From Hamiltosporidium tvaerminnensis (taxonomy: Eukaryota; Microsporidia; Dubosqiidae): a stretch of 64,000 nt of DNA. Position numbers and translations under genes: made by a program. This document shows, one piece after another, positions 5,160 to 61,620 of the stretch. The stretch lies in NCBI GenBank assembly GCA_022605425.2, contig CM061249.1, positions 1-64,000 on the forward strand, in the 5' to 3' direction. The first letter of the stretch is position 1. Every line of letters starts with the position of its first letter. The notes below the pieces were generated by a model. The model had not been told where the DNA came from, made no database searches, and saw only the letters and a program-made list of their open reading frames with translations.

Positions 5160-5407
5160 ACTCACAACACGAGAACATTGGTGGTGAAAATTTAAAGCTC
5201 AATTTACTGGGATATTAAACGTAATTCCCAGATGTTAAAGTTCTGGAAGATAATTTTCTATCCACTCTTCTCTATCTCTACATTACCGAAGATGAGAAAA
5301 GGGGTATGAATTATATAGTTCTAGAAATTTCTAAAACGCTTAAATTGTAGTTTATAAAATTTCTAGAAATTCGGTAATTATTTAAACGAAAATTTTTCTT
5401 TCCCATC
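5160..5407 (+). promoter_or_regulatory. 5' UTR / probable internal promoter region of the LINE
   Basis: The stretch before ORF1 is less A+T-rich than the DNA upstream and carries two near-identical palindromic segments built on TTCTAGAAATT, at about 5,320 and 5,360. Non-LTR elements usually carry an internal promoter in the 5' UTR, so these are candidate control sites. No TATA-like or initiator element can be assigned with confidence. The tract CTTTCCC lies just before the ORF1 ATG. Confidence 0.4.
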
Positions 5408-6463: not shown

Positions 6464-9200
6464 AAAAACTGGATTTATAAACGTGGGCGGTTTATCAAAC
6501 TTGAAAATAGAAAAAATAAATGAAATTCTTATAAAACACAAACCCGATATACTATGCATTGCTGAGACATGGAGGAATAATATTTTTCCGCTACACAATG
6601 ATTATAGAATAGTGGCCGTTAAATCAGCCATAGAGGTTACGAACAGATACGCAAAAAAGGAGGGAATGATAATTATATCTAAAAAACATATAGAAGTAAG
6701 AAAACTTGAAAACATTACGACGGCAGGCCTCTGCATTAAACACGATCAGACAATACTGGTCTTTATTTATAGAGAACATTCAAGCTCTGAAGAAAAAATA
6801 TTAAACGAAGAACTTAGTTCATACACAGATGCAAATATTATCTGCATTGGCGATTATAACTTGGAACAAAGAGCAAATCTAGAACAAGACGTGCTGAATA
6901 ACCATGCTAAGTACGGCTTAGCAGAGGTAAACTTGCACACGAAAACTTTTATACATAACGAAAAAAGCTCTACCCCAGATAAAGTTTTCGCCAATTGCCC
7001 AGTCATTACGGATATAAAAACTATAGAAAACATAAATCATAAGCTAATAGTAGCACTTCTTCCAAAGGCACAGAAATGTGAGCCTCCTAAATACAAAATA
7101 AACTTGATTAAAAATTCTGATATAAGAAATATGATAACAAAGAAAATAGAACAATATACGGAAAGGTCTATAAATATCTTAAAATTTCTAAACGTTAACA
7201 ATAAATGCTTACTACTACATTCCATACTTATCAAGAGTATGCGAAGAATTGAACGTCGAGAAAGACTTCATGACCGTTCAAATCCTATTATTCAACATGT
7301 AAGAAAGCTGCGCGATAAAGCAAGGAAAACAAATGCGAAAGAATATGATGAACTTAGACGCGAGGTAAAAAAGCTTGCTAAACGATTTGATAACTCAAGC
7401 CTACCACGAACAAACTTAAGATACACAAGCTTACAAGCTTCTGAATTGGAAAAGGTTATCTTATTCAATGGCAAGACTGAACGAAAGCATACTAAAAATA
7501 TAAGAGAATTACTAGATAGTTTTATCTTAGACGGAAATATAAAAGAAACAGAGAAAACTATAAAAGAAATTAAAAATTTCTACGGAAAAACCAATATGAA
7601 ACACAATTACAACCAACAAGACATGATTACAAGCTTCACACTGGCAGAAGTTTCTGCTATGATTAAAAATCTGAAATCGGGAAAGTCGGGTGGGATTACA
7701 GGAATCAGAAATGAATTTCTTAAAATATGCCCAGAAAACTTTATAAATGAACTTACGAATCTATATAATGCAATATTAGATACACAACAAATCCCCGACT
7801 CTTGGAAAAGGCATAAAATCAAGCCCATTCCGAAGGATAAAGATAATTTCAGACCAATCGCCTTAATTGAACAAACGAGAAAGCTTTTTGAGAAGCTTTT
7901 ATTGACAAAGATAGACATAAAGTTGCATAGACAGCAAACAGGTTTCAGAGCAAAACATTCCACTATTAATCACGCACTTGCATTAGATACAATTCTAAGA
8001 CACGGAAACGGAAAATATATTTGTGTAACACTAGACATAAAGAAAGCGTATGACAGTGTCTTTAGAAAAAACTTGTATAAGAAACTTCTGAGACAACAAA
8101 ACTTTTCGATCAAAGATACCACATTGATTGCAAACTTGATAGAAAACAACAGCTATACTATATGTCAGAAAAATACTGGTAATATAAAATTTAAAACGGC
8201 TGCCTTGGGTCTACCTCAGGGAAGTATTATCTCTCCTATACTATTTAATATCTTTATAAACGACATTATTTCTTATATTCCGAAAAAATATAGATACCAC
8301 ATTTTCTTATACGCGGATGATATAGTCATCTACTCGACATGCATGGTGGCTCTAAATACCATAATTGACGGACTTTGCAAACATGCGGCACACAATAGAT
8401 ATTTATTTAATCCCAAAAAATGTTTCTATAATGCAACGAAAGATTTGAACATATTTATATATGGAAAGAAAATTGAAAAACAGAACCCGCTTAAATATCT
8501 TGGGTTTTATTTCAATAACCGCTGTGCCGATACAAACGAGACTTTAAAGACCATACGGAAAAAATCTATAAAGGCTGCGGTTATTACAAACAGAGCATTT
8601 AAAAGATCAGAATTTAATTCCTTTCATAACTTACCACAACTAAAGCTACGTGCATATAACATGTACGTTCGTCCACATATAGATTACCACGCTGTACTCT
8701 TAGGATGCAATACAACTTTTAACACTGCGGCAGACCGGATACAAAAAGGTGTTATTAAATTTATGTACAATATATACTACCGAACCCCTTCCAAGATTAT
8801 CTATGCGCTATTCCCGATAGAATCAATTCCCCAGAGAGTTGAAAGACTAAGATATAGTCTTGGCGAGAGAATACTACAAATGAAAAAGACGATAATAAGA
8901 TTTGCCTTTCTTAGACTATTCAGTAAGAACATCAGAAATATCAAGAATAATATTAAAACATTTAGAAAAAAATTTCCTAATATGGACGCCAAAGATAGAT
9001 TCAAGAAACTGAACAAAGAAAATCTTAGGGTTAATTTTACTATTTTCCAAGAAATTGAACTTTTAAAAAAGTATAATTTTCAAAATAGCAACAAAGCCAA
9101 TTTTGAAAGAATAACAAGAATCTTGAGTCCATTTAGAAAAGAACAAGAAATTTCAGAAATTTTAAACTTATTTCAAGTGGCAAATATTGCCCGCCCATAG
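6456..9200 (+). CDS. LINE ORF2: APE-type endonuclease plus reverse transcriptase
   Basis: A 914-residue polyprotein that would nick target DNA and reverse-transcribe element RNA from the nick. The endonuclease occupies about 1-203: AETW (E37), GDYN (D133, N135), TPDKVFAN (D175) and a terminal His in NINHKLI (H195), the place of the usual SDH. A basic, helical linker spans about 225-385. The reverse transcriptase spans about 393-690: N-terminal block with SGKSGG (408-413); PIPKDKDNFRPIAL (457-470); motif A TLDIKKAYD with D527; motif B GLPQGS (585-590); motif C YADD (619-622), with D621 and D622 catalytic; and YLGF (681-684). The C-terminal 220 residues form a basic thumb-like tail with no CCHC finger and no RNase H. 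Length suits a compact APE-type LINE pol. The ATG lies 8 bp inside ORF1 in another frame, so translation probably depends on reinitiation. I cannot fix the clade without a tree. Confidence 0.95.
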   Translation: MVRKTGFINVGGLSNLKIEKINEILIKHKPDILCIAETWRNNIFPLHNDYRIVAVKSAIEVTNRYAKKEGMIIISKKHIEVRKLENITTAGLCIKHDQTILVFIYREHSSSEEKILNEELSSYTDANIICIGDYNLEQRANLEQDVLNNHAKYGLAEVNLHTKTFIHNEKSSTPDKVFANCPVITDIKTIENINHKLIVALLPKAQKCEPPKYKINLIKNSDIRNMITKKIEQYTERSINILKFLNVNNKCLLLHSILIKSMRRIERRERLHDRSNPIIQHVRKLRDKARKTNAKEYDELRREVKKLAKRFDNSSLPRTNLRYTSLQASELEKVILFNGKTERKHTKNIRELLDSFILDGNIKETEKTIKEIKNFYGKTNMKHNYNQQDMITSFTLAEVSAMIKNLKSGKSGGITGIRNEFLKICPENFINELTNLYNAILDTQQIPDSWKRHKIKPIPKDKDNFRPIALIEQTRKLFEKLLLTKIDIKLHRQQTGFRAKHSTINHALALDTILRHGNGKYICVTLDIKKAYDSVFRKNLYKKLLRQQNFSIKDTTLIANLIENNSYTICQKNTGNIKFKTAALGLPQGSIISPILFNIFINDIISYIPKKYRYHIFLYADDIVIYSTCMVALNTIIDGLCKHAAHNRYLFNPKKCFYNATKDLNIFIYGKKIEKQNPLKYLGFYFNNRCADTNETLKTIRKKSIKAAVITNRAFKRSEFNSFHNLPQLKLRAYNMYVRPHIDYHAVLLGCNTTFNTAADRIQKGVIKFMYNIYYRTPSKIIYALFPIESIPQRVERLRYSLGERILQMKKTIIRFAFLRLFSKNIRNIKNNIKTFRKKFPNMDAKDRFKKLNKENLRVNFTIFQEIELLKKYNFQNSNKANFERITRILSPFRKEQEISEILNLFQVANIARP

Positions 9201-9809: not shown

Positions 9810-12800
9810 AATGTTCGGTGTTATTTATGTACATAATTTTTTCGAGTTTATTCAAAGCTAGTGTCGGCCTTGAGTCGAATTGACAAAACAAAAATTTTGA
9901 AAAAAATAAATTTAGAAAAATATATGTTTTATTGAATAAAAATTGCATAAAGCACTTCGGATATTAGGTAAATAATTTAATTTTGTAGTTTTAAATAAAA
10001 TTGGGATTATCTTCGATGTCATTTTTTCCTACCTAATTTTTTGAATTTTGTTTAATATATTTTATATATGGTATATGAAACACTTTAGAAATCTTGAAGA
10101 ACTTGGACTCGAAAGATATAAAATCTAATACTTTAAAATTGTTATAAATACATCAGATAGGTTTTTAACAATATTTCATGCCTTTTTTATAATTAAATAT
10201 AGCTATGTTTTATCAAGTTTTTATTACCTAATTTTTTACGATTTCATTCGATATATTTGCTGTATATAGTTATGATGCAATAAAAAAAATTTTAAAAAAT
10301 ACATTTGATTTAATACTTAAGAATTTATTAAAATACTTCGAATCTGTTATTAATAATGAAATAAGATTGTTTATAATGGAATTTGTTCATGTTTATGCGA
10401 TTTTTATTACCTAAGTTTTTTTAAACTGGTTAAAATGTTTTCTACAGTAGTATTAAACACTCGGAAAATTAATAAAAAAATAAATGAAATATATAATATT
10501 AAATGGTTAATAATCACCTAAAATGGCTTAAAAGTTCTTAAAATAACTTAAAAAGATCGTTTAATATGAAATTATTTGTTTTTAATGTAAGTTTTTTAAT
10601 AATTTTTGGTAATTTTTTTCGATATAATTTGTATATAGTCGTATTGACGATTCGAGATGATGAAATTATCAGGAAAAAAAAGAAAATCTTGAATGTTAAA
10701 AATTCTCTAAAAATTATACAGAACTTCTTATAATAATCTAATATAATTATATTTTACAAAAGATTCAGGAATGTTTCTGAGTAATTCCATTTTCCAAATT
10801 TTCATATTTTTTTTCGATAATATTTTCTATATACTGTATGAAACGATTTTAAATTAGAAAAAAAAATTCAGAAAAAAACATTAGTTATAATCTCAAAGAA
10901 CACATATAATAAATGTTCTTAGGATATCATTAATGTTATGTTTATGTTAAATTTTCTGAGATTCTAAGCAATTTTTTTTTACTGAATTTTTTAAAGTCAT
11001 TTGTTATATTTATATATACTATATTCAATTATTCGAAAGTTATCACAAATTCAAAATAAAAAAACAATTATGTTTATTTAAATAAGAATGATTCGAAATA
11101 CTACCAGGTAGATTCTTAACCTAATATATTTATTCTTAAATTTGTATTTGATTTACCTATATTTTTTAATTCTGTTAGATTAGTTTCAATATAGTTGTAT
11201 AAACCATTGCAAGATTCTAAAAATAAACTAAAAAAATATATGATTTATTTTACCTAAAGAATGTAAAAACTTTCCATATGGATTTATAAAGTTAGGAATG
11301 AGATAATAAAAAATTTGGTCAATTTATTAATTTTTTTGATTTACTTAATCAGTTTTCGTACAGTCGTATATACGATTTAAAAAATATAAAAAAGTTGTTC
11401 TTAAAAAATAAACGCTTCAATGCATAGGAATCTATAAAAATACATTAAGTGTGATTTAAATAATTTTATTTTTTTGTTAACTATAAAATATAGCAGTTTT
11501 TCTTATAAATTTTTATTACTTATTTTTGCAATGTTGCTTAGTATATCTTTTATATGAATATTAAGAAAGATAAGAATTATGAAAAATTCAAGTTGCCCAA
11601 ATAAACTTTAAAATAATTATAACGCTCCAAATATTTTAAAAAATACGTCTATATACTTAGATTATGCTTTATGATAATATTAAGTCATTTTGTGTCTTTG
11701 TTTCAATTTTCAATTTTTTTTGAATTTTGTAGGCATATTTAACTATAAATATGTCGCGTTTTAAAATTGAAAAAACATCAACGAAAAAATATATATTCAA
11801 TGCACAGCTTTTTAATTAATCTATAGAGGAGTCTTACAGTCCTCTAAAAGGTTGCTTCTGAATAAGCTCTGATGTTCTGAAGTAAATTTCTAAATTAATT
11901 TTTTCTCATTCAAACTACATAGTATATTGTGAATGAAGCAATTTAAAAAAAGGTGAAAATCTTCTTTAAAAAAATTTAAGAATTATATTACGAAAATATC
12001 GCAACTATCAAATTCTGTATAGTGTAACAGAATATTTTTCTTTAATTTAAATTTATAGTATATCTTTCTATTAAATTCGAATGAATTGATTTTTTCTATT
12101 TGTTTTATATATAGTCGTTTGAATGATATGAAAAATGGAAAAAAATATAATTAAAAAAATAGATGTTTCGTTGAATAAAAATTGGTATAGATACATCAGA
12201 TGTTTAGTAAAAAAAATTTATTTATAGTTAAGAATAAATTTTGTCTTTTTTCTTAACTTTTTTTATTGCTTGATTTTTTCTATTTTGTTTAATAGAGTTA
12301 CATGTATCAGAATTGAAGATTTTAAAATTTTTAAAATACTTTGTAAGAAAGAAATACTATTTAATGCTCTGAAATTGATACAAATTCTACTAATATGCTT
12401 ATAAAATATGACTGTTTATTTTGTATAAAATTTGGTTATGCAATCTTCATTACAATTTTTTTTTGATTTTTTTCGTGATATATTTGTATATAGTATATGA
12501 AACAAATAGAGAATTATCGATGACAAAATAAAATTTTTAAATAGTCAAAAAACAGCAAAAATACAAGAAATTATCTAATAAGGAAACAATATTGAGGTTG
12601 TTAATAAACTTTTCCCGTTTTTAAGAACATTTTTTCACAATATTTTTTTTCATTTCGATCAACCTATCTCGTATATAGTGTGTAGGCTATTCCAAAATTT
12701 TTGAAAATATTTTACAAGATATATGTTTTAATACCAAAAATTACTTTGAATATAATGAATAATTGTTTAATAATTAGATATTGTATGTATAATAAAATTT

Positions 12801-13020
12801 TAGGTTCTTTTTGTAAATTTCTGTACTCCAAAATTATCGAATTTAGTCGATATAGTTACTTATAGTCGTATTGAAGATTCTATAATATGAAAAAAATATA
12901 TAAAAACAAATAAGATTATATACATGAAAAATCCGGAAAAGGGATTAGAAATCTTTATAATTATCAAATGTGGTTTCTTTTAATTAAATCTGCCATTTTT
13001 GCTTTAAATTTTAATACTTG
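9810..13020. repeat. ~187-bp satellite, array 1 (about 17 monomers)
   Basis: Diverged monomers recur every 170-197 bp, averaging near 187. Shared layout: TTATTACCTAATTTTTTCGA, then a core close to TATATAGTATATGAAACGA (alternative form ATATAGTCGTATTGACGATT), then AAAAAATTA-rich sequence, then a TTTATAATAAAATTTG-like end. Core positions are about 9,865, 10,065, 10,262, 10,445, 10,633, 10,830, 11,012, 11,192, 11,360, 11,550, 11,745, 11,922, 12,110, 12,298, 12,488, 12,672 and 12,860. Monomers are old and differ substantially from one another. The period is near a nucleosome repeat length. Confidence 0.85.
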
Positions 13021-16000
13021 TTTGTTTTTTTAATTTTATTTAGATTCGTTTCCTTTTTAAGTTTTTTTAACTAAAATATTTTATGTTTTTGTAATTATTT
13101 TACTTCTTTTTGCTACATTTAAAATTTCTAGTCGTATATACTTGTTTTACTTAAATTCATTTTGCTTAGCCTTAATCTAGTTTTTAAATATAGTTACATT
13201 TTTTTAGATCATTCTTTTGTTATTTATTTGCTAAGTTAAATAGTCACTTATGTAAGCGTTTTTCTACAAATAAACTATTCTAGCTCTTATAATGTTGAAT
13301 TTTTTCAAAAAGTACTATTTTTTCTTTAAAAAAGTATTATGTTATTATATTTTATTGGAATTTTTATTAATTTTATGTCAATTTTATATTCATTTAGCTA
13401 AAAATTCGTTTAATCACATCACTATGTCACATTTGAATATATACTTAAGTATTTTCTCTTCTTATATGATATTAAGTGTTTAAGTCTAATAAGCGTATAA
13501 AATTTACCATAATTGGAAGTTTTTAAGTCTAAGGTATTGAATGTTTTTTTATCCTTATTTGAAATATTTGGACTATTAAAACCTTTACTCAATATCAAAA
13601 GCTAAGATTTTTTTATCTTGGTCATAATACGCTGTGTTTAACTTTAATATTGCCGTATTAAATTTTATGAAATCGTTCGGAAAAGCTCTCAGTATATTGT
13701 TAGAAACATTAATCATATATGGGATTTATAGATAACTTTCGATTTCTATATAACCTCATATTATTTACCTTTTATAAAATTGATTGAAATGCCATGTATC
13801 TATTATAAATGTATTGTTTATGTTACTTAAAAAAATATAAATCTATTTGAAAGAAAGATGTATATGTGAAAGATATTTTAATATCATGTATAAAACTTTT
13901 AATCGAATTAATGAGAAAATTAATACTATTAACTTTTGTGAAATGGATTAAATTTTTTTAGATTTATAAAGAGATTAATTTATTATGTGTAATACAATTT
14001 ATAGGCAGTAGATCTTAATATTTCATTCATCTCAATATATCATATAAATAAATATTTTGTTTTATAATATATAGCCAGAGTGAACCAACTTAAATTGTTA
14101 TATTCTTAAATGTATTAAATGTTTTTATAATTTGTAAACTCTTTTTATTAGAATTATATACTATCTTACTGAAAGTGCTAAAGAATTAACTTTAAATAAA
14201 TAGGATAGTATACTAAAATGTCTTAAACTTATAACTTTATTTTATTTATATTACTTTTATTTTAAAACTACATTTTTCTGAATGATTTTACATTAATTAT
14301 TAGTACATTTGAATGCTTTTGAATTATCTACCTAGTTTAAATACAATTTCTACAACTATGTTTTAAATGGTTCGGATATCTGCTATTTGGGTTTTTTTGA
14401 TCTTTAACTTTCACTGTAGCAATACGGATTCACACAAAAAAACAATTCAACTAAAAACTAATTTAGATAATATTTTAATTTGTATATGATAGAATGAATG
14501 ATCAATATATAGTTCAGTATAAACTTAATTTTATACCACATAATTTAATATATATTTTTTTATAGCTTTACAGCTACGAACAAATCTTTACATAATAAAG
14601 AAATACTTATATTAATGAAATCATAAGATATTGATAACATTTTTATATCTAGATATATTTATAAGAGGATATTAAACGAGAAGATTAAAAAACATATTTT
14701 TTTATCAAATCGGTCGTGTATTATAAGTCAAAAAATAAAATTTCGATGAGTTTGTTTGTCGAATTATAGCTAATTATATCGAAATTATTCTTTTTCTCAA
14801 TTAAAACTTAAAAATAGAGACAATTAGGTATCAAAAATCACTAAAACTATAAGTGAGATTTAATTCTAAATGTTGTGGCATCTTTTACAAGTAAATTAGT
14901 ACTTTTTAATTTTGAAACTTTCGATTCTTCCTTATATGAATAAAAATTAAACTAATTCAGAGGAATAGAACTTATGCCACAACCAACTGATATATTTTTA
15001 CTAGAATATTTGCACCTGTAATATATTATCTCAAACTATCCAAGCTGATTCGAATTATGGAATGGCATATCTAAGGTTATTTACACATTTTACCTTTGTT
15101 CAAAGTGTAGTCACAAAGAACTCATCTGATCTTGTTTGAAGTCAAAATTAACTAAATAATTTAATGAATTCACTCATAATATATTGGTAGATAAATACCC
15201 AATATCATTAACTGGAATTTTCATAACGCGAAGGCAAATAACGCAATTATGAGGCGCATTTGCCTATTTCAAAAAATTCGAGGTAAAGTTGTATATTATA
15301 AAGAAAAAGATAAAATAATATAATATAATATAATTGAATTTATAAGTTATAAGTTTAAAATTTAATAGATTTTATTTACTTTACATCAAAAAACATTACC
15401 TTTGTATATTTGCTCGACTATTTCTTTTAAACTTTAAGAAAATTTATTTGTTCCTCATGATATATGAGTGAATTGTTCTCTATCATTGAATTTTTTTCTT
15501 CTTGATAAAATGTGTTCTTCTTATTATAGAAATCTTCGTAAATGGTTTGAGCTATTAACGCGTAAATTAACCGTTTGGACTCAATACAAAGTTTGTATTA
15601 TATATTATCTTATATCATTTTTTGGTTTGTGTTAGAAGATTAAACATATTTTATATTTTCTAAAAATTTAAAGGTAATGCTGTTTTGAAGAAATATTTTT
15701 AAATGTATATTTTTTTAGTAATTTTTGCTTATAAAAAATTCCAAACTCATAGGTCTAAATGCTTCTTTTTGTTTGAATACTATTTTATTTATATTGATTT
15801 TAAAGAAAACAGAGAATAAATAATGTGCCTTTTCTCATAATCACAATGTCACAATGCTACATAAAGAATAAAAAATTAGAATTTTATTGAATGTATATTC
15901 GCTTATACAAAGCTTTCCATTTTAAAATACTTTTGATAAGGATAAAACTTTATGCAAATGATATGCATTCTAACGAATTTAGATTTTAATATTTTTTTTT

Positions 16001-17980
16001 AAATTATTAATAATAATTTAGAAGATTCCATATAACAATTATTTTAACTATATCTCTATACGTATTAAACAATAAATTTTTTTTAGATTGTAAATGGTTT
16101 GAAATTAATTCATTTTACAGCTATTTTTATAATTTATTTTTTTTATTTAAATTTATGCAAGTTATAAATTCAGATATGAAATAGAATATGAAGAAAATTA
16201 TATATGTAGGGATATACTAATAAAAATATCTTAGTATGATTTAAAAGAAGCCAAGAACATTATTTAAATAAGTATTGTTATACATTAAAATGGTTTAGAA
16301 GGGTAAACATTGGATGGTATAATTAACAATTGTGACTTTAGCTCACTCATATTGTAACTGGATAGATTGCTTTGGAAGAATATCTTCAAGATTCTGAACG
16401 AATTAAATGAATTTTGATTCTAAGTGACATTGATTGTAAAAAAATTTAAAAGTATAAATAGGCAAGGGTTTTCATTTTGTAGCATCTTCTACAGATTAGC
16501 TTCAAGAATATATATGTTTGAAATATCGGATGCTCTATAGGAAAAGCTCTTCATCCTTTAAACTACAAGAGCCATGACTGTACTGAAGTGGAAGCCAAAT
16601 ATACCAAATGTCCCCGTTTACAGATATCCATTCTCTGTAATATTTGCAGCCAAATTTGCTGCATCTGTATATCCTAATTGCTGGATTATAGAAAGACTTA
16701 TGCAAATTTATTTACGTAATTCTATACTTGCTTCAATATAGATGTCCTGAACAACAATCGATTTTGTTAAAAAATCAAAGAATTCGAAATGCATGGTTTT
16801 AATCACTTTATAATGCTAAGATACACTTACGAACAACATCAATTGTATTTAAAAGAACTTTAAGGCAATGAGCCAAATACTAGGACAACACTACCTATTT
16901 AGTTAGAAAAGTCGTTTGGAAATATTTACTCACTACAATAAAATTATATCAAAATACTATTCAGAAAAATCTTAAATCATTTTACGAACAACCGTAATTT
17001 ATTGTTTACAATATCTACAATTTTGATTGTATGATTTTAATTGCTTAATTCAATCACAATCTAAAACGATAGGTCTTTTATAATATTTTGCATATGTGTG
17101 ATTCTTATATATTTACATTTCTATATAAATAAATGTGTTTGTTTCATCTTTCTAAAGGTATTACATACTTTGTTGCTAGCTATGTTACAGAACTTATATA
17201 AAGACATTGAAAAGTTAATCGAAACGTATATTTCTTTAATGTTTTTCTAAACTAACTTTCTCAAGTATTTCACTGCTACAGATTAGGTAAATATTATTTT
17301 CTTTACTATATTTCTCAAGTATTTCGCTCACCCAGGTCAGTAGAAGCAAAAATTTTAAATTGGAATGGTATTAAGTGCTTTATGCACTTTCTAATAAATT
17401 AACTTTTTTTATTTGCTTTTCTAAGCTAGTTAATGTGATTTGCATTTATCTTTCAATTCTTTTCAAATTAAATTAAAATGGCTTTTTTTTGGCTCGACCA
17501 TAGAAAGTTTTAGTTTCCCTTTTATAACGAATTCACAATAAATAGAAATAAAACGAAGATATCCTTAAATGCATTTTGAAATCGCTTTTTTACAGTTTTT
17601 TATGATTTTCGTACTTTTATCCAAGTAAGTAAAATATCCAGACATTTTTTTACATTAAAAACACTTATGAATAAAATAGCGACATTTCTTTTGAATATAA
17701 AAATAAAAGAGCTTCGAAATGCAAAGCTGTTAGCATTTTTAATTAAAATGTATTTTCAACTATAAAAAATAAGTATTGAATTTAATCACCTAAAATTTTA
17801 AAACGGTAAACTCCTAATATTAAATGATTTTTTACGTGTAATATTTTGAATTTAGCAGATGTCATAACTTTTGCCAATGAAAACTATCTTGAAACCTTGG
17901 AACGAAAAATATAATGTTTTAAAAAAATCCCCAAACGAAAATTAAAAAGCAGTTGAATATTAAAAAAAGAAAATTTTTAT
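13021..17980. other. A+T-rich middle of block A
   Basis: No intact gene. The ORF at 13292-13483 is an A+T-rich chance frame. The segment 13,490-15,550 is present three times in the window (here, 20.66 kb and 56.17 kb), and the relic at 16.24-16.79 kb lies within this stretch. Confidence 0.6.
16241..16794 (-). pseudogene. Decayed transposase-like relic (possibly ISXO2/Merlin), copy A
   Basis: The minus strand carries an old coding trace. An ATG at 16,794-16,792 starts MHFEFFDFLTKSIVVQDIYI, a Phe-rich start like that of ISXO2-like transposases. After a break, a second frame gives RCSKFGCKYYRE (about 16,632-16,665) then ISVNGDIWYIWLPL, resembling the zinc-ribbon and following strand of that family. 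Further on, a frame around AKVTIVNYTIQC (16,320-16,365) resembles its helix-turn-helix, before a TAA at 16,243-16,241. Several stops and frameshifts intervene. Copy B keeps the middle frame open. No DDE catalytic part is seen. A second overlapping frame (around TDAANLAANITEN) is also fairly open and could be the true one, so family assignment is inference from remembered motifs. Confidence 0.35.
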
Positions 17981-17984
17981 TTGT

Positions 17985-18975
17985 AATTAGACCAAAATAG
18001 TTCCCCTAACCAAAATCTTTAAACTGTTGCTCTGCTCTACAATATTTTAGGAGCATAAGCAGAATCAAATATTTCTAAAAACCAAACACGCTTTAAAAAA
18101 TAGCAAAAACTTTTTTCACTCAACTAATTAATTTCATACACTCCAAAAAAGTTTTCCCTACCCTAATTTTTAGTCCCCCAATCTAAACATTTTTCCCCAA
18201 CATTATTATTATTTCCCTACCTCGATTCTTTTTACCCTTGCGCCTGTTCTACATAACAGAATATTTTTTCCCCTAAATTTCTTTAGCTTTTAAATATATT
18301 CTCGAAAAGCTTCATCATTTCCCCGACCAAATCTTTTTATCTTTAAATATATTTTTTCGTCAACTAATTTATTTCCGCTCTAATTTACTTTTTGCCATAA
18401 ACTTGCTCTTCCTCTCAGACAATTATTTTTTTCTCAAGTTTTTTTAATTATTCTGTTCAAATTATTTCTTTTTTGAAATTTTGTATCTTTAAAACAAATA
18501 TTCTATTAATTATCCGACTCCATTGATCTCAACTAGATATTTTCTTTCTGCCGGTTCTTTTTCTTAAAAACGGATTCTTTTCTACAGATTTTAACTTTCC
18601 TTGGTCTTTTTTACATTTTAAAAACCAATACTTTATTTCTTTAGCAAACCTTTTCACTTTAACTAAACATCATTCCCCAACCTGTTTTTATAACTAATTC
18701 TCCTTTCCCATACGTAATTTTCTTCCTTTATAACCCTTTTTTTCGCTATCTTAAATCTTTTTCCGAATCAGAATCTTTTCCCTAACTACTGTCTTTTTTC
18801 CCAAACTATTTTTTTTTACTTGCTGGCCCCGATCTACTCATCAAAAACAGATTTATTCTCCTGACTTAATTCCTAATCTTTTTTCGTCGAACAGATCTTT
18901 CTTCGCTAACTACAATCTTTTTTTCCTTGGCTAATTTTCTTTCTCTCTAATTTTTTTATTCTTGTTGAATAAAAT
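17985..18975. repeat. C/T-rich degenerate telomere-like array, block A
   Basis: About 1 kb in which the plus strand is nearly all pyrimidine plus A. Loosely repeated words such as TTTCCCTAAC, TTCCCCTAACCAAAATC and TTTTTCCC recur every 25-40 bp, separated by T runs. It stops abruptly at the change to purine-rich sequence near 18,968. The C-rich strand has the same orientation as the terminal CCCTAA array. There is no coding potential. It may be an ancient degenerate telomere, or a strand-asymmetric minisatellite. Confidence 0.6.
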
Positions 18976-44790: not shown

Positions 44791-44800
44791 ATCCATATAA

Positions 44801-46525
44801 TTAACACCCATTCTTTTAGTAAAATATATCCGTATAATTAACACCCTTATTTTGTTTATTATTGTCTTATTACTAACACACTTTTAAATTTTAAATATTT
44901 ATTCTTATCAATAACACCCTGTTATTTATTGGTATACTTATCTATAATACTTAGACCCTTTTGTATAGAGTTAAACGTATTTATATGGTAAGGCCTTTCA
45001 AAATATCCTTTGAAATATTATTTTCAATAACACCCTGCTATTTCAAAAACCAAACACTTTATTACTAACTCCCTGTTATTTATATTGAAGTATTTCTTGT
45101 TTACTAACATTTTGTTATTTATTTCTATAAATTCTAAGATCCAGTAAAACACCCTTCTAGCGCAAAGTATAAGTCTCCTTATTAACACCCTGTTATTTAT
45201 TTTATAAATGCCTAGATTTGTAACACCCTTTTATATACTGTTTAATATATTTATTATTAACACCCTGTTATTTATTGTATAAACGCCTTGATTATTAACA
45301 CCCTTTTATATACTGTTTTAAATATGTATTATTAACACCCTGTTATTCTTCATTATGAGCATCTCTATAAATAACACCTAATTTATTTATTTTTTACTAA
45401 CACCCTTTTATTTTTCATTTCGTTTTTTATTTTCTTAAATCCCTATTATCCTTTCCTATAAATTTTATTATTATTAACACCCTCTTATATATCTGAAGAT
45501 ATGTAATAAATTAACACCCCGTTATCTATTTTCTGAAGCTTATTTACTAACACCCTGTTATATTTAAATAGGAATATTATATAAATTAACACCCCTTTAT
45601 TTATGTATATAAATAGCTTTATATTAACACCCTAATTATATATCTATCTTTATAATAACACCCCTTTGTTTATCTATATAAAATGCTTTATTATTAACAC
45701 CCTAATTTTATATCTATCTTTATAATAACACCCCTTTGTTTATGTATATAAATAGCTATACTACTAAGACTCTTTAAAGTATAACCTTAATATAAATAAC
45801 ACCCTTATAATTTCATCTTAATCACTAACACCGTAATAACACTTTATAACATTAACACCCCGTTATTGATACAGCCTATATTAACACTCTTTATCCACTA
45901 CAATTTGTCTAACACCCTTTATCTACTACCATGTATATTAAAACCCTTTTATACATCTGTCATAGAAATACTACCCTTTATCTAATATAAATAGTATTAA
46001 AACCCTGTTATTGTTATGTTTTTCAATAAAAAACTTTATTAGTTACTTCGTGATTAACACCCTTTTATACATATGTCTTGAAAATAACACCCTTTATTTA
46101 ATACAAATGTTGATTATCACCCTTTCTTTATCACAATTGTGATTAACACCCTTTTATACATATGTCTTGAAAATAACACCCTTTATTAAATACAATTGTG
46201 ATTATCACCCTTTATTTATTACAATTGTGATTATCACCCTTTTATACATATGTCTTGAAAATAACACCCTTTATTAGTTACAATTGTGATTATCACCCTT
46301 TATTTATTACAATTGTGATTAAAACCATTTTATACATATGTCTATAAAATAACACCCTTTTTAGTTTCAATTGTGATTATCACCCTTTCTTTATTACAAT
46401 TGTGATTAAAACCATTTTATACACCCATATTAAATTAAAACCCTTATAATTTCTTGCTTTATCACTAACACCTTGTTGTTTACACCCCCAATCCATACTA
46501 CCCTTATAACTTACACCCTTTAATT
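44801..46525. repeat. TAACACCC-based degenerate minisatellite
   Basis: About 30 exact ACACCC words, nearly all within TTAACACCC, CTAACACCC or ATAACACCC, plus some 20 near-variants (ATCACCC, AAAACCC, CTACCC, AACACTC), all on the plus strand in 1.7 kb. A common extended form is TTAACACCCTGTTATTTATT. Sites are typically 25-60 bp apart with A+T spacers. From about 46,050 to 46,420 a higher-order unit of about 88-90 bp repeats four times, marked by CATATGTCT and CAATTGTGATTA. There is no coding potential. It resembles a telomere-related or protein-binding array. Confidence 0.9.
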
Positions 46526-46529
46526 GTTT

Positions 46530-51389: not shown

Positions 51390-54300
51390 TTTCATACAAT
51401 AATATTTTTATATAGTGTATTAAAAAAGTTAATATTTCGAAAATCAAATTTAAAAAACTATATGAATTATTATTTGAAATATATGGAAAGGATATAAGAT
51501 CTTGTATTAGTTTGTGGATTTTGTAAATATGAAAAAATATCTTTGTTTTGTTGATTTTTGTTACCTTTTTTTTTCGATTTGTTTATGTATATTTGTATTG
51601 AAGGCTTTAAAACTAAGATAAAGTTAAGCTTATAAGAAATAGAATTTAATATTTATAAAATCACGAGAATAGTACATAAATGTTTATAATAATATAATTG
51701 GTTATGTTTAATATTCCATTTAGCCATGTTTCCGGCATATTTTTTTAATTTTACTTCTTCGATTTTTTATATAGTTTAGTATATAGGTATAGACAATCCA
51801 AAATTATTTTATAACGATTTTAAAAAATATAAGTTTTAGTAGATAAAAATCAATATAAATCTCTTGGACGGATAATATAATTTCTTTTTATAGTCTAGAT
51901 TAAAATTTTAATATGTTTTGGATTTTTTTTTAACCTATTTGTTTTAAATTTTGTTTTATATATTATATATATAGTGTATGAAACGATTTGGAAAAATGTA
52001 AAAAATAATTCAAACATAGTTAGATCTTAAGGTTGTAAATATATTATAATAGAATAGATATGTGTAAATAAATATAATATTTTTTTATATAGTATATCTT
52101 TATATTTTATGCAATTTTTATTCTATTTAATTTTTTTAGATTTTGGTCGATCATTTATGTATAGTCGAATGGAAGTTATAAAATTATTAAAAAATCGAGC
52201 TATAAAAGTATAAGATTACATATTTAGAAATTACTGTAACTAGAGTGAATGGTCTTATAATAATTAAAAATAATTTTTACTATCTAATTTGGTCATTTTT
52301 ATTATAAATTTTGTCATTAATTTTTTCACTGTATTTTTTTGAAATCTTTTGTTCATAGTGTATGAAACGACTAAAAATCGGAAACAAATTGGTTTAATAT
52401 ATACAATTTAATAATTGAAAATCCAATATCTAAACGCTTTAAATTATCTAAATTGTGAAAATTAATTTCTTTAAAATAAATTTCTTAACGTTTGGTGTTA
52501 TTAATGTACATTTTTTTTCGATTTTATTCAAAGCTAGTGTCCGCTTGAGTCGAATTGACAATACAAAAATTTTGAAAAAAATAAATTTAGAAAAATATAT
52601 GTTTTATTGAATAAAAATTGCATAAAGCACTTCGGATATTAGGTAAATAATTTAATTTTCTAGTTTTAAATAAAATTATGATTATCTTCGATGTCATTTT
52701 TTCCTACCTAATTTTTTGAATTTTGTTTAATATATTTTTATATAGTATATGAAACACTTTAGAAATCTTGAAGAACTTGGACTCGAAAAATATAAGATCT
52801 AATACTTTAAAATTGTTGTAAATACATCAGATGGGTTTTTAACAATATTTCATGCCTTTTTTATAGTTAAATATAGCTATGTTTTATCAGTTTTTATTGC
52901 ATAATTTTCTACGTTTTCATTCGATATATTTGCAGTATAAAGTTATGAAGAAATAAAAAAAATTTTAAAAAATATATTCGATTAAATACTTAAGAATTTA
53001 TTAAAATAATTCGAATCTGTAATTAATAATGAAATAAGATTGTTTATAATCAATTTAATTATGATTACAAGGATTTTTATTACCTAATTTTTTTTAAAAT
53101 TTTTCGTTTTTTTTCTATAGCAGTATTAAACACTCGGAAAATTAATAAAAAAATAAATGAAATATATAATATTAAATGGTTAATAATCACCCAAAATGGC
53201 TTAAAAGTTCTTAAAATAATTTAAAAAGATCGTTTAATATGAAATTATTTGTTTTTAATGTAAGTTTTTTTAACTAATTTTTAGTAATTTTTTTCAATAT
53301 AATTTGTATATAGTCGTATTGACGATTCGAGATGATGAAAATATCAGGAAAAAAAGAAAATCTTGAATGATAAAAAATCTCTCAAAATTATACAGAACTT
53401 CTTTCAATAATCTTATAATTATATTTTACAAAGATTTAGGAATGTTTCTGAGTAATTCCATTTTCCAAATTTTCATATTTTTTTTCTATAATATTTTCTA
53501 TATACTGTAGGAAACGATTTTAAATTAGAAAAAAAAATTCAGAAAAAAACATTAGTTATAATCTCAAAGAACACATATAATAAATGTTCTTAGGATATCA
53601 TTAATGTTATGTTTATGTTAAATTTTCTGAGATTCTAAGCAATTTTTTTTTACTGAATTTTTTAAAGTCATTTGTTATATTTATATATACTATATTCAAT
53701 TATTCGAAAGTTATCACAAATTAAAAATATAAAAAAAATTATGTTTATTTAAATAAGAATTATTCGAAATACTACCGGGTAGATTCTTAACCTAATATAT
53801 TTATTCTTAAATTTGTATTTGATTTACCTATATTTTTTAATTCTGTTAGATTAGTTTCAATATAGTTGTATAAACCATTGCAAGATTCTAAAAATAAACT
53901 AAAAAAATATATGATTTATTACCTTAAGAATGTAAAAACATTCCATATGGATTTATAAAGTTCCGAATGAGATAATAAAAAATTTGGTCAATTTATTAAT
54001 TTTTTTGATTTACTTAATCAGTTTTCGTACAGTCGTATATACGATTTAAAAAATATAAAAAAGCTGTTCTTAAAAAATAAACGCTTCAATGCATAGGAAT
54101 CTATAAAAATACATCAAGTGTGATTTTAATAATTTTATTTTTATGTTTACTATAAAATATAGCAGTTTTTCTTATAAATTTTTATTACTTATTTTTGCAA
54201 TGTTGCTTAGTATATCTTTTATATGTGTATGAAGAAATTTAAGAATTATGAAAAATTCAAGTTGCCCAAATAAACCTTAAAATGATTATAACGCTCTAAA

Positions 54301-55690
54301 TATTTTAAAAAATACGTCTATATACTTAGATTATGGTTTATGATAATATTAAGTCATTTTGTGTGTTTGTTTCAATTTTCAATTTTTTTGAATTTTTTTG
54401 GCATATATACCTATAATATATGTCGCGTTTTAAAATTAAAAAACATCAACGAAAAAATACATATTCAATGCACAGCTTTTTAATTAATCTATAGCGGAGT
54501 CTTAAAGTACTCTAAAAGCTTGCTTCTGAGTAAACTCCAAAATTCTGAAAGTAAATTTCTAAATTAATTTTTTCGAATTTGTCAAACTACATAGTATATT
54601 GTGAATGAAGAAATTTAAAAAAAGGTGAAAATCTTCTTAAAAAAAATTTAAGAATTATATTACGAAAATATCGCAACTATCAAATTCTGTATAGTGTAAC
54701 AGAATATTTTTCTTTAATTATAATTTATAGTATATCTTTCTATTAAATTCGAATGAATTGATTTATTCGATTTGTTTTATGTATAGTCGTTAGAATGATA
54801 TGAAAAATGGAAAAAAATATAATTAAAAAAATAGATGTTTCGTTGAATAAAAATTGGTATAGATACATCAGATGTTTAGTAAAAAAAATTTATTTATAGT
54901 TAAGAATAAATTTAGTCTTTTTTCTTAGCTTTTTTTATTGCTTGATTTTTTCTATTTTGTTTAATAGAGTTACATGTATCAGAATTGAAGATTTTCAAAT
55001 TTTTAAAATACTGTGTAAGAAAGAAATACTATTTAATGCTCAGAAATTGATACAAATTCTACTAATATGCTTATAAAATATGACTGTTTATTTTATATAA
55101 AATTTGGGTATGCAATCTTCATTACAATTTTTTTTTTGATTTTTTTCGTGATATATTTGTACATGTAATGAAACAAATCGAGAATTATCCATGACAAAAT
55201 AAAATTTTTAAATAGTCAAAAAACAGCAAAAATACAAGAAATTAGCTAATAAGGAAACAATATTGAGGTTGTTAATAAAATTTTCCCGTTTTTAAGAACA
55301 TTATTTCATAAATATTTTTTTTTTCATTTCGATCAACCTATCTCGTATATAGTGTGTAGGTTATTCCAAAATTTTTGAAAATATTTTACAAGATATATGT
55401 TTTAATACCGAAAATTACTTTTAATATAATGAATAATTGTTTAATAATTAGATATTGTATGTATAATAAAATTTCTAGGTGCTTTTTGTAAATTTCTGTA
55501 CTCCAAAATTATCGAATTTAGTCGATATAGGTACTTATAGTCGTATTGAAGATTCTAAAATATGAAAAGCAAATATAAAAACAAATAAGATTATATACAT
55601 GAAAAATAACCAGAAAAAGGACCAGAAATCTTTTAATTATCAAATATGGTTTCTAAAAATTAAATCAGCTATTTTTTCTTTAAATTTTAA
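51390..55690. repeat. ~187-bp satellite, array 3 (about 23 monomers)
   Basis: About six monomers with cores at roughly 51,410, 51,585, 51,780, 51,965, 52,155 and 52,350 precede block B. The array then continues as the copy of array 1, from about 52,530 to 55,535. Unlike array 1, it is not interrupted at its left by the LINE and hairpin island. This shows that array 1 once probably extended further left. Confidence 0.83.
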
Positions 55691-58600
55691 TACTTGTTTA
55701 TTTTTTAAATTTTATTTAGCTTCGTTTCCTTTTTAAGTTTTTTTAACTGAAATATTTTATGTTTTTGTAATTATTTTTCTTCTTTTTACTACATTAAAAA
55801 TTTCTTGTTGTATATACTTGTTTTACTTAAATTCATTTTGCTTAACCTTAATCGACTTTTTAAATGTGGTTACATTTTTTTAGATCATTCTTTTGTTATT
55901 CATTTTCTAAGTTAAATGCTCCCTTATGTAAGCGTTTTTCTACAAATAAACTATTCTAGCTCTTATAATGTTGAATTTTTTCAAAAAGTACTATTTTTTC
56001 TTTAATAATGTATTATGTTATTATATTTTTATGGAATTTTTATAAATTTAATGTCAATTTTATCTTCATTTAGCTAAAAATTGAGTTTAATAACATCAAT
56101 ATGTTACATTTGAATATATACTTAAGTTTTTTCTCTTTTTATATGATTTATAAGTCTTAACCCTAGTAAGCTTATAAAATTTACCATAATTGGAAGTTTT
56201 TAAGTGTAAGGTATTGGATGTTTTTTTATCCTTATTGGATATAGTTGGACTATTAAAACCTTTACTCAATATCTCAAAATAAGACTATTTTATCTTGGTC
56301 ATAATACGCTGTGTTTAACTTTATTATGGCCTTATTAAATTTTATGAAATCGTTTGGAAAAGCTCTCAGTATATTGTTAGAAACATATATCATATATGGG
56401 ATTTATAGATAACTTTCGTTTTCATATAACCTCATATCATTTACCTTTTATAAAATTGATTGAAATGCCAGGTATCTATTACAAATGTATTGTTTATGTT
56501 TCTTAAAAAAAATATAAATCTATTTGAAAGAAAGATGTATATGTGAAAGATATTTTAATATCATGTATAAAACTTTTAATCGAATTAATGAGAAAATTAA
56601 TATTATTACCTTTTGTGAAATGGATTGAATTTTATAGATTTATAAAGAGATTAATTTATTATGTGTAATACAATCTATGGGCAGTAGATCTTAATATTTC
56701 ATTCATCTCAATATATCATATAAATAAATATTTCGTTTTATAATATATAGCCAGAGTAAACCAACTTAAATTGTTATATTCATAAATGTATTAAATTTTT
56801 TTATAATTTGTAAACTCTTTTTATTAGACTTATATACTATCTTACTGCAAAGTACTAAAGAATTAACTTTAACTAAATAGGATAGAATACTAAAATGTCT
56901 TGAACTATTAACTTTATTTTATTTATATTACTTTTATACTAAAACCACATTATAATGAATGATTTTACATTAACTATTCGTACATTTGAATGCTTTTGAA
57001 TTATCTACCTAGTTTAAAGGCGATTTCTATAACTATGTTTTAAATGCTTAGGATATCTGCTATTTGGGTTTTTTTGATCTTTAACTTTCACTGTAGCAAT
57101 ACGGATTCACTCAAAAAAACAATTCAACTAAAAAATAATTTTGATAATATTTTATTTTGTAAAAGATAGATTGAATGATCAATATATAGTTTAGTATAAA
57201 CTTAATTTTACACCACATTTTTTTAATATATATTTTTTTATATCTTTACAGCCACGAACAACTCTTTACATAATAAAGAAATACTTATATTAATGAAATC
57301 ATAAGATATTGATAACATTTTTATATCTAGATATATTTATAAGAGGACATTAAATGAAAAGATTGAAAAAACATATTTTTTTTACTCAATAAGTCGTGTA
57401 TTATAATTTAACAAATAAAATTTCGATGATCTTGTTTGTCGATTTATAGCTAATTATATCGAAAGTATTATTTTTCCAATTAAAACGTAAAAATAAAGAT
57501 ACTTGGGTATCAAAAATCACTAAAACTATAAGTGAGCTTCAATTCTAAATGTTGTGGCATCTTTTACAAGTAAATTAGTACTTTTTAATTTTGAAACTTT
57601 CGATTCTTCCTTATATGAATAAAAATTAAATTAATTTAGAGGAATAGAACTTATGCCAACCAACTAAAATATTTTTACTAGAATATTAGCACCTTTAATA
57701 TAATATTTCAAACTATCCAAGCTGATTCGGATTATGGAATGGCATATCTAAGGTTTTCAGATATGTTAGCATTGTTTAAAGGGTAGTCTCAAAGAACTCA
57801 TCTGATCTTGTTTAAGGTCAAAATTAACTAAATAATTTAATGAATTCACTCATAATATATTGGTACATAAATACACAATATCATTAACTAGAATTACAAT
57901 AACGCGAAGGAAAAGAGCTCAATTATGAGACGCCTTGGTCTGTTTGAAAATACTCGAGGTGGAGATGTATGTGGTAAAGAAAAAGATAAAATAATATGAT
58001 GAGATTTATAAATTAACCATTTAAAATTCAAAGATTTTATTTACTCTACATCACAAAACACTACTCTTGTATATTTGCTCTAAATATTTCTTTTAATAGT
58101 TAAAAAAATTCATTGTTCCTTTATGATATATGAGTGGAGCGTAGTCTCTATGATTGAATTGTTTTCTTCTTGATTAAATGTGTACTTCCTATTATAAAAA
58201 TCTTCATAAATATTTGAGCTATTAACGCTTAAGTAAGCCGTTTGAACTCAATACAAATTTTGTATTATATATTATCTTATACTATTTTTTGGTTTGTGTT
58301 AGAAGATTAAACATATTTTACATTTTTCAAAAATTAAAAGGTAATGCTGTTTCGAAGAAATATTTTTTAATGTATATTTGTTTAGTACTTTTTGCGTTTA
58401 AAAAAATTCCAAACTCCTAAATCTATATGCTTCTTTTGTTTGAAATACTATGCATTTCATATTTAATTGAAAGGTATCAAATAATAATTTGGAAATTTTC
58501 TCATGTACACAATTTACAATAAAGAATAAAAAATTTACGTGGATACATATTCGCTTATACAAAGCTTTTCTGGTTTAAGTGAATTTGTTAAAAATAAAAC

Positions 58601-60645
58601 TTTGGTCAAATGATATGCAGCTTAACAAATAAAGATTTTTATGTTTTTTTATATTATTAATAATAATTTAGCAGAACTCATGTAGCAATTATTTTAAATA
58701 TATCTCTATACGTATTAAACAATAGATTTTTTAGGTAATACATGGTTTGAAATTAATTTATTTTACAGCTATTTTTATAATTTTTTTTTATTTAAATTTA
58801 TGCAAGTAATAAATTCAGATATGAAATAGAATATGAAGAAAATTATATATGTAGGGATATACTTATAGAATATTTTAGTATGATTTAAAAGAAGCCAAGA
58901 ACATAATTTAAATGTGTATTGTTATACTTTAAAATGGAATAGAAGGGTAAACAGTGGATTTTATAATTAACAATTGTGGCTTGAGCTAATTCATATTGTA
59001 ACTGGATTGATTGCTTTGGAAAAATATCTATCAAGATACTGAACGAATTAAATGAAATTTGATTCAAGTGACATTGATTGTAAAAAAATTCACAAGTATA
59101 AAAGGCAAGGGTTTTTCATTTTGTAGCATCTTCTACGATTAGGTTCAAGAATATGTTTGAAACATCTGATGCTCTATAGGAAAAGCTCTTCATCTTTAAA
59201 ACTACAAGAGCTATGACTGCAATGAAGTGGAAGCCAAATATAACAAATGCCACCGTTCACGGATATGAATTCTCTGTAATATTTGCAGCTATATTTGCTG
59301 CATCTGTATATATCCTAATTGGTGGATTATAGAAAGATTTATTAATGTTTATCCCCATGGGTCTAAACATGATTAATTGTATAGCTATCTCAAATCACAT
59401 TCGTTCTTGTTGAAAAATCGAAAAATTTGAAATTAGTGATTTTAACAATCTTGTAATGCGTTTAGATAATCTTAACTGCAACATCAATTGTATTTACAGG
59501 AACTTTAAGGTAATGAGCCAAATACTAGGATAACACTGCCTATTTAGATAGAAAAGTTGTTTGAAGAAATATACCCTATATAATAAAATTATATCAAAAT
59601 ACTGTTCAAAAAAATTTTAAATCATCTTACGAACAACCTTAATTTATTATTTACAATATCTTACAATTTTGATTGTATGCTTTTAAGTGCTTTATCTCGG
59701 TCACAATCAAAAACAATATGTCTTTTATAATATTTTGGATAGGTGTAGATTCTTGTGTATTTACATTTCTATTTTAATAAATTTGTTCGTTTTATTTTTC
59801 TAAAGGTTTTACACACTTTGTTGCTAGCTATGTTACAGAACTTAAGTAAAGACATTATAATGTTAATCTAACCGTATATTTCTTTAATGTTTTTCTAAAC
59901 TAACTTTCTAGTATTTAAATTCTACAGGTTAGGTAAATAATATTTTCTCTACTATATTTCCCAAGTATTTCCCTGACTTAGGTTAGTGAAAGCAAAATAT
60001 TTTAATTGGAATGGTATTAAGTGCTATTACATTTTCCAAATATATTAACTTTTTTATTTTGCTTTTCTAAGCTAGTTTGTGTGATTTGCATGAAATCTTT
60101 CAATTCATATCAAATTATATTAAAATGGCTTTTTTTGGCTTAACCATAGAAAGTTTTAGTTTCCCTTTTATAACGAATTTTAAAAAATAGAAATAAAACG
60201 AAGATATCCTTAAATGCCTTTTGAAATCGCACTTTTTAAAAGTTTTTTATGAGTTTCTTGCTTTTACTGTAGTAAGTAAACATTCATACATTGATTTAAC
60301 ATTGAAAACCCTTATGCATGAAATAGCGACATTTCTTTTGAATATAAAAATAAAACGCTTGTAAATGTATTGCTTTTAATATTTTTAATTAAAATAAATT
60401 TTCAACTATAAACAAACAAGTATTGAGTTTATTCATCTGAAATTTAAAAAAAACTTTGTCCTAATAGTAAATGATTTTTTACATGTAATAATTTGAATTT
60501 AGCAGATTTCATAATTTTTTCCAAATAAAACTACTCTTGGAACTTTGGAACAAAAAATATTTATGTTTTAAAAAAGAATTCCTCAAACGAAAATTAAAAA
60601 AAATTTAAAAGCAGCTGAATATTAATGAAAGAAGGAATTTATTTG
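55691..60645. other. A+T-rich middle of block B
   Basis: Counterpart of 13.02-17.98 kb. No intact gene; it contains the second relic at 58.89-59.43 kb. Confidence 0.6.
58885..59435 (-). pseudogene. Decayed transposase-like relic (possibly ISXO2/Merlin), copy B
   Basis: Counterpart of the relic at 16.24-16.79 kb. The initial Met is lost but NFKFFDFSTR aligns with the copy A start. RCSKYSCKYYRE then ISVNGGICYIWLPL lies at about 59,230-59,306, and a 60-codon open stretch with LQYELAQATIVNY lies at 58,885-59,067, where copy A has stops. Where the copies differ, B is intact in places A is broken, so the common ancestor was less damaged than either. No catalytic domain follows downstream. The same caution about reading frame and family applies as for copy A. 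Confidence 0.35.
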
Positions 60646-60649
60646 TAAT

Positions 60650-61620
60650 TAGACATACCCTTTTCAATTAACCGCAATCAGAATTTATAAACTGTTGCTC
60701 AACAATATTTTATTGAGCATATGCAGAATCAAATACTTAGTAAAACCAAACTCTTTTTAAAAAATAGCAAAAACTTTTTTCACTCAACTAATTAATTTCA
60801 TACCACTCCAAACAAGCTTTCCCTACCCTTTTTTTTAATCCCCGAAACCAAGCGTTTTTCTTCAACCCTATTAATATTTCCCTATCCCGATTGTTTTTAC
60901 CCAAATTTCTTTTCTACATAACAGAATCTCACCCGCCTTAATTTCTTTATATTTAAATATATTTTAAATAACTTACTTCATCATTTTCCTGGCCAAATCA
61001 TTTTATCTTTAAATTTATTTTTTCCGCAATTAATTTCTTTTGCCCTAACATTCTTTTTTCCATAAACTTGTTTCCCTTCAGGACAATTCTTCTTTACAAA
61101 AGTAATTTTTATTTATTCTGTTCAAATTATTTTCTTTTTTTAAAACTTGTAGCTTTAAAACAAATTTTAATAACATACCCAACTCTATTAATTTCAACTA
61201 AATATTATCATTCTGACAATTTTTTTCTAATTAACAGATTCTTCTTCTACCAATTTTAACTTTCCTTAGTATTTTTTAAATTTTAAAAAACAATACTTTT
61301 TCCTTAGAAATCCTTTCCCCCGGCCTGATTTCACTTTCCCTAAACCCTATTACCAACTAATTCTCTTTTCCCATATCTAATTTTCTTCCTTCGTATACCT
61401 GTTCCCTAGCTAAAATCCTTTTTCCGTAACTACAATTTTTCTTTCCCTAACCAAAAACTTTTTTAATAGATGTAAAACCCAATGCTTATCTCTACTCTAA
61501 TTTTACTCTCACGATTTATTCCTAAATTTTTTCCTCCAATAATTTTTTTTTTCTAACTACAATCTTTTTTTTCTTGCATTATTTTCTTCTCCCAAACTTT
61601 TTTATTCTTATTGAAAAAAA
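60650..61620. repeat. C/T-rich degenerate telomere-like array, block B
   Basis: Counterpart of 17,985-18,975, with the same pyrimidine-strand bias and words such as TTTCCCTAACC, TTCCCTATCCCG and CTTTCCCTAAACCC. It is noticeably diverged from its partner, more than the satellite part of the block. The ORF at 61068-61259 inside it is a chance frame. Confidence 0.6.

Follow-up and report, generated by a model that had tools for sequence, protein, structure and literature searches.

Hamiltosporidium tvaerminnensis is a microsporidian parasite of Daphnia, and the accessible text of its 2023 assembly paper puts interspersed repeats at 39.56% (of which 25.45% other) and does not describe the core-repeat family treated here (PMC10542269). 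In the same species, then named O. bayeri, in-frame inserts of 15–57 aa were described in 14 conserved proteins, with replication factor C (subunit unnamed) and EF2 on the list; in the parts of that paper available, RT-PCR is said to confirm that the inserts are not removed from the mRNA, short tandem repeats are mentioned, and neither a shared DNA motif nor a tie to non-coding or subtelomeric arrays is given (Corradi et al. 2009; PMC2784321). The repeats reported here resemble those inserts, as far as the available text describes them, in lying in frame within conserved proteins of the same species, including an RFC2-like gene with core sites in its insert, whereas EF2 is on the earlier list and the EF2-type gene found here is without the motif in 731 codons. 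In the texts reached by a literature search that included the letters GGGTGTTA, the motif was not found described in microsporidia, with an earlier mention possible; the motif family may be new, but tandem repeats and in-frame inserts are known kinds of element.

Several systems outside the microsporidia offer partial parallels. Minisatellites share units of ~30 bp, local amplification, and gain or loss in approximately whole units, whereas the spacers here have diverged almost to background around a small retained core, and thousands of words occur genome-wide, genes included, in both directions. Bacterial genome-wide short words, such as DNA uptake sequences, Chi, and HIP1, are likewise single over-represented words that occur in genes in whichever frame permits; in contrast, the present word belongs to a eukaryote, forms phased arrays, and has no process known to use it. 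Rickettsia palindromic elements are also short repeated DNA borne in frame within conserved genes, but they are single longer palindromes, unlike the tandem arrays of 13-bp dyads found here, of which 2 of 7 stretches fold better than shuffles. The arms of Drosophila Foldback elements consist of ~31-bp repeats, and the likeness to Foldback and En/Spm-type arms lies in short-unit arrays with opposite orientation on two sides; in contrast, the present arrays have no ends or transposase linked to them, and 40 of 65 clusters are of a single orientation.

Against this background, one DNA-level repeat family ties a puzzling non-coding array to the species-specific protein insertions of 2009. The family is tolerated in most frames and in either direction and adds length to certain conserved proteins of this microsporidium, whose genome is large, raising a testable general question, namely whether protein insertions can be driven by a DNA motif instead of by selection on the protein.

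Results

A one-strand array in the subtelomere of contig C4

The window, the whole stretch of 64,000 nucleotides that was analysed, corresponds to positions 1–64000 of contig C4, and the genome searched comprised 21,638,905 bases in 17 contigs. A first-pass annotation had described a one-strand array of ACACCC-type words, C-rich in the same sense as the telomere, and this description holds, with the array on the + strand having the same sense as the CCCTAA strand of the terminal repeat (Table 1). The figure of about 50 ACACCC-type sites was an over-count (exact ACACCC, 31; relaxed set, 43). Word counts for the region 44700–46600 gave 27 TAACACCC, 31 ACACCC, and 36 CACCC on the + strand and none of the three on the − strand, and TAACACCC is absent from either strand of the window outside this region. 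When the array's own bases were shuffled (2000 shuffles), TAACACCC occurred 0.03 times on average and at most once. The array lacks a strict period: of the 42 spacings between the 43 relaxed sites, 31 fall at 28–31 or 36–39 bp, and higher-order units of 70, 75, and 88 bp were identified (TRF), with units in this 70–88 bp range being 91–94% alike. The window has a G+C content of 24% and no Rfam matches at gathering scores. None of its open frames of ≥120 aa overlaps the array; all lie within the telomere or the LINE-like element at 5.4–9.2 kb.

Table 1. Positions of the telomere, the array with its sub-arrays, and other repeated features of the window
Feature	Position	Strand	Description	Basis
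Telomere	1..496	+	(ACCCTA)n on + strand, (TTAGGG)n type	TRF, 82.7 copies, 99% match
LINE-like element	5378..9200	+	5 kb from telomere, two overlapping open frames	
Direct duplication	9869..17016 and 52544..59661		Offset ~42.67 kb	85–99% identical among pieces listed
C-rich one-strand stretches	17990..18960 and 60640..61620		TTTCCC words; 222 C:61 G and 215:48	
Array	44802..46520	+	27 TAACACCC, 43 core-like sites (relaxed pattern set), C-rich, non-coding	
Sub-array, 75-bp units	45179..45347	+	Two cores per unit, 37–38 bp apart	TRF, 2.3 copies, 91%; core positions
Sub-array, 70-bp units	45587..45757	+		TRF; alignment of 8 copies
Sub-array, 88-bp units	46050..46423	+		TRF, 4.2 copies, 94%; alignment of 8 copies

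Elsewhere in the window, the LINE-like element has a 914-aa frame with a match to a reverse transcriptase family and an endonuclease family match below the curated cut-off, and a 361-aa frame without a Pfam match. The two TTTCCC stretches look related by eye, at an offset nearly that of the direct duplication; they are without TAACACCC, and their periodicity is weak, near 19–20 bp.

A dispersed repeat family with a 13-bp core

Genome-wide, TAACACCC occurs 6178 times (3003 on the + strand, 3175 on the − strand), compared to 275 occurrences (143 and 132, respectively) of the reversed word. Pairs of words that run in the same direction 10–40 bp apart number 3115 versus 0, and perfect 13-mers (TAAnACCCTnTTA) number 941 versus 27. 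The first 100 TAACACCC places listed, all on the + strand of C1, are clustered between 59.6 and 864 kb of 1973 kb, and the first 100 paired-word places listed are clustered on the same strand between 176 and 1895 kb. The array is one copy of a dispersed repeat family with thousands of words genome-wide, between and inside genes. Most of the loci described below were found via the array or the word and are not a random sample.

The core of the family is a 13-bp quasi-palindrome, TAAnA-CCC-TnTTA, that occurs on either strand. At CACC seeds whose neighbour lies 25–42 bp away, the TAA and the C beside the seed are conserved alike in 297 coding and 414 non-coding sites, and the spacer is not. For core centres counted up to 62 bp apart, distances of 27–33 bp account for 174 of 284 GG, 157 of 276 CC, 21 of 35 GC, and 4 of 14 CG neighbours (the CG numbers being small), with a second peak at 38–39 bp. 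The phase apparently follows the palindrome, whereas the direction is set by whether its centre is CCC or GGG.

Switches of orientation are rare and unequal. Close G-to-C switches number 52 genome-wide and C-to-G switches 15, for patterns that cover different centre distances; with the distances matched (≤38 bp), the counts are 38 and 15 (50 of the 52 G-to-C places counted). Among 65 non-redundant clusters of at least three sites, 40 run in one direction only, while the 25 mixed clusters divide into 15 that start with G and end with C, 2 that start with C and end with G, and 8 that are alike at both ends. Across 23 G-to-C switches, spacer agreement was 0.43 and 0.38 in the same sense and 0.32 when inverted (background, 0.34 and 0.33). 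An RNA hairpin element was considered for the family and rejected. Compared to 40 shuffles each, folding of four in-gene inserts gave z = −0.06, −2.95, −1.09, and 0.29, and folding of window positions 44801–45500 gave z = 0.57 (+) and 0.67 (−); the second insert of the histone deacetylase (HDAC) gene (z = −2.95) and window positions 46035–46420 (z = −6.4) fold better than their shuffles, such that hairpins are present in 2 of 7 stretches and are not general.

Retention of the core and turnover of the spacers

Neighbouring units were anchored on CACC alone and core agreement was scored on the TAA and the following C. In the window array (28 neighbour pairs), agreement is 87.5% for these positions and 42% for the spacer, and at other loci (569 pairs) the values are 85.5% and 49%, with random spacer pairs agreeing at 34%. 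Control arrays carrying the same word in 15 viral and 77 prokaryote stretches (421 pairs), whose base composition differs from that of the genome, agree at 84% in the core positions and 71.5% in the spacer. For the most part these control arrays are ordinary repeats: neighbouring units are equal in length in 65 of 92, and in 59 of those 65 they are at least 90% identical. The A+T-rich spacer of the family is weakly related between loci. For 597 units, the mean best spacer match is 0.81 within a locus, 0.63 at other loci, and 0.54 after shuffling, and 79 of 606 units have a spacer match of ≥0.82 elsewhere (shuffled, 0). Together with the core agreement, this gradient points to common descent and local amplification, with the core outlasting the spacers. 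Like minisatellites, the arrays consist of tandem units of 10–100 bp that change in number (TRF; indels among eight copies), but neighbouring units are not alike over their whole length (spacers, 42–49%; core, 86–88%).

Near-complete copies at chromosome ends

Searching the genome with the array DNA gave at least 63 matches, a lower bound because 40 of 104 candidates were scored. Eight of these, including that of the window, are near-complete (≥1637 of 1901 query bases covered), and the other seven are 88–96% identical to the window array. Four of the near-complete copies are left-end copies on the + strand (C4, C13, C14, and C16) and four are right-end copies on the − strand (C2, C7, C14, and C15); they lie 8–76 kb from the contig ends, all in telomere orientation. 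The remaining 55 matches listed are shorter and 65–85% identical, except for an overlapping piece of a C14 copy (96%). Other chromosome ends, to which the first-pass annotation had pointed as the place to look, do carry the array in the orientation of the telomere, but the word itself is not confined to ends, with 6178 occurrences on both strands, at interior loci and in open reading frames as well.

In an alignment of the eight end copies, indels of ≥5 bp measure 69, 70, 88, 89, and 262 bp, approximately whole units or their multiples, and units have been gained and lost. Four of the seven other end copies lack a 69- or 70-bp stretch of the sub-array with 70-bp units, and 88, 89, or 262 bp have been gained or lost by other end copies at the sub-array with 88-bp units. 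Variable columns make up 34 of 280 in the core (12.1%) and 143 of 1276 in the spacer (11.2%, p = 0.71); therefore, the end copies show no sign that their core is constrained at present, and core retention is seen across older, diverged units only. Selection on the core in these copies, which a cell count had suggested (2.1% vs 3.2%), was rejected because the column count did not bear it out. The array as a whole varies less than its flanks (11% vs 22%), which may reflect alignment or gene conversion.

Arrays inside genes

Long open frames contain core arrays, and exact TAACACCC was found in five of six reading frames and in both directions. Where the frame would read TAA as a stop, the variants CAACACCC (13 of 27) and TATCACCC (7 of 27) occur, an avoidance of stops that is partly true by construction as the frames were chosen open. 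Of eight array-bearing frames compared to Pfam, five were matched (histone deacetylase, topoisomerase II, myosin head, DEAD-box helicase, and a LRR protein) and three were without a match.

Alignments to solved homologues place in-frame inserts between conserved blocks in HDAC, RFC2, topoisomerase II (topo II), and an Slh1-type helicase, while the window array is non-coding. The HDAC inserts are 92 and 55 residues long, compared to 13 and 5 in HDAC3, and the RFC2 insert is 101 residues long, compared to 7 in its homologue. Core sites in inserts and in conserved blocks, respectively, number 13 in 441 bp and 1 in 852 bp for HDAC, 4 in 339 bp and 3 in 873 bp for RFC2, 9 in 834 bp and 4 in 1518 bp for topo II, and 15 in 1584 bp and 6 in 1050 bp for the helicase (pooled, 41 in 3198 bp and 14 in 4293 bp). 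Core sites are clearly in excess in the HDAC inserts, and the excess is modest in the other three genes. Insert limits were set by hand on the alignments, with the last topo II block started at residue 780 although the match started at 756. Three helicase blocks are supported by weak alignment pieces (6.3, −1.7, and 1.4 bits), and an RFC2 insert of 12 aa was read from a region that aligns poorly. The count covers 4 of 6 answered structure queries and leaves out L026 (myosin) and L082, for which there was no PDB match at strict cut-offs. Of the 10 inserts of ≥15 aa, one topo II insert and two helicase inserts have no core sites, nor does the EF2-type gene (L175 on C1, found via its EFG_IV domain) in the 731 codons examined; therefore, the family is not the sole source of inserts.

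Spacings inside coding frames tend to preserve the reading frame. Same-direction spacings of ≤60 bp are divisible by three in 191 of 220 cases within frames of ≥300 codons and in 174 of 345 cases outside (p = 8e-20, a guide only as neighbours are not independent), and in 11 of 28 cases in the window array. When AAA-domain genes were sampled blind to the motif (20 matches, 19 genes), clusters were present in two (L079 and L082).

Discussion

The first-pass annotation had read the array as a platform for a telomere- or silencing-related protein or as an old telomere variant, with reference to the core of the Rap1 site. The Rap1 consensus has two parts (ACACCC-RY-ACAYM), and the array contains no such two-part site, strict or relaxed, on either strand, such that an array of Rap1 sites is rejected. 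A plain telomere variant fares no better: head-to-tail TAACACCCTAACACCC occurs only once in the genome, and the units are mostly ~30 bp with spacers. With spacer-bearing units, no confinement to ends, and genes invaded, a telomere variant or interstitial telomere is likewise rejected. The shared telomere orientation of the eight end copies speaks for a telomeric role, but exchange of one subtelomeric block would also produce it and the telomere reading is not needed to explain it; with 6178 copies distributed alike over the two strands, genes included, such a role is extremely improbable. Strand-biased subtelomeric arrays should be searched for across the whole genome before they are called telomere devices.

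On balance, the array is probably a non-coding, subtelomeric member of a family spread through the genome, whose arrays are copied into new places and resized by units, with the core guiding the copying. An array would arise where one unit, or a few in tandem, had been copied into a new position, and would then expand and contract as units are duplicated and lost (by slippage, unequal exchange, or gap repair); in the one genome analysed, no birth of an array was observed. The core would outlive its drifting spacers if re-amplification or retention mostly concerns units whose core is intact. Because it is retained while the spacers turn over, the core probably guides amplification, most likely as the site where a strand break, a fork stall, or a bound protein sets off copying. 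In coding DNA, selection would retain mainly growth in multiples of three, and the end copies, which would have travelled with a subtelomeric block, now look like relics. A more specific version, in which a dedicated system (a recombinase, a transposase-derived nuclease, or a break-prone DNA structure) acts at the 13-bp dyad to seed and enlarge arrays genome-wide, conserved genes included, is rather unlikely; if true, the dyad would be a eukaryotic counterpart of the bacterial genome-wide words and a DNA-level source of in-frame protein insertions.

The arrays could instead be plain minisatellites, old tandem repeats of one ancestral unit spread by chance, in which the core would have no role and would appear conserved only through search bias. 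Core and spacer columns that are equally variable in the eight end copies, units that are related within loci and weakly between them, and indels of approximately whole units would all fit, but the CACC-anchored agreement (85–88% core vs 42–49% spacer) differs from that of the prokaryote/viral control (84% vs 71.5%), a ~30 bp phase across opposite orientations is unexpected for such repeats, and a G+C-rich core in a window of 24% G+C should decay fastest, yet is the best kept; this origin is unlikely. The equal variation in the end copies that suits a minisatellite argues against a row of sites that are bound by a dimeric protein with a cellular role (chromatin, boundaries, or recombination) and maintained by DNA-level selection. 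Here the suggestion in the first-pass annotation of a platform for a binding protein is partly borne out, in that a short conserved dyad with variable spacers and a similar centre spacing in any orientation does look like a row of binding sites, and the genome has 15 Myb-type domain matches, whose link to TAACACCC is unproven. However, a selected role at each of the sites in conserved genes, across five of six frames and both directions, is improbable, which leaves a binding-site row quite unlikely.

Orientation is the evidence that bears on remnants of DNA transposons with tandem-repeat arms (Foldback-like or En/Spm-type), with GGGTGTTA as the left arm and TAACACCC as the right. The preference of mixed clusters for G-then-C (15 vs 2, among 25 mixed of 65), the excess of G-to-C switches (52 vs 15, and 38 vs 15 at equal centre distances), and the unit length of the Foldback arms are consistent with such an origin; against it, 40 of the 65 clusters, and the window array too, have a single orientation, and spacers across the 23 G-to-C switches tend to keep their sense (0.43 and 0.38) over inversion (0.32). 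Transposon arms are a very unlikely source of the family.

Other repeats in coding frames

The long array of L014 (C12:243552–247131) is open in both senses, with 793 codons on the + strand and 416 codons on the − strand. The frame of the EF2-type gene L175 holds another short repeat, of VDANNN type by eye, without the TAACACCC core. A second in-gene repeat occurs in L028 (C1:166913–170107) at about 930–1180 and 2400–2665, where the telomere-like CCTAACCCTAA (CCTAA) lies beside AAATGCATAAAC; it translates as NPNPNKCIN and similar and is rare, with 16 matches genome-wide to one exact pattern.
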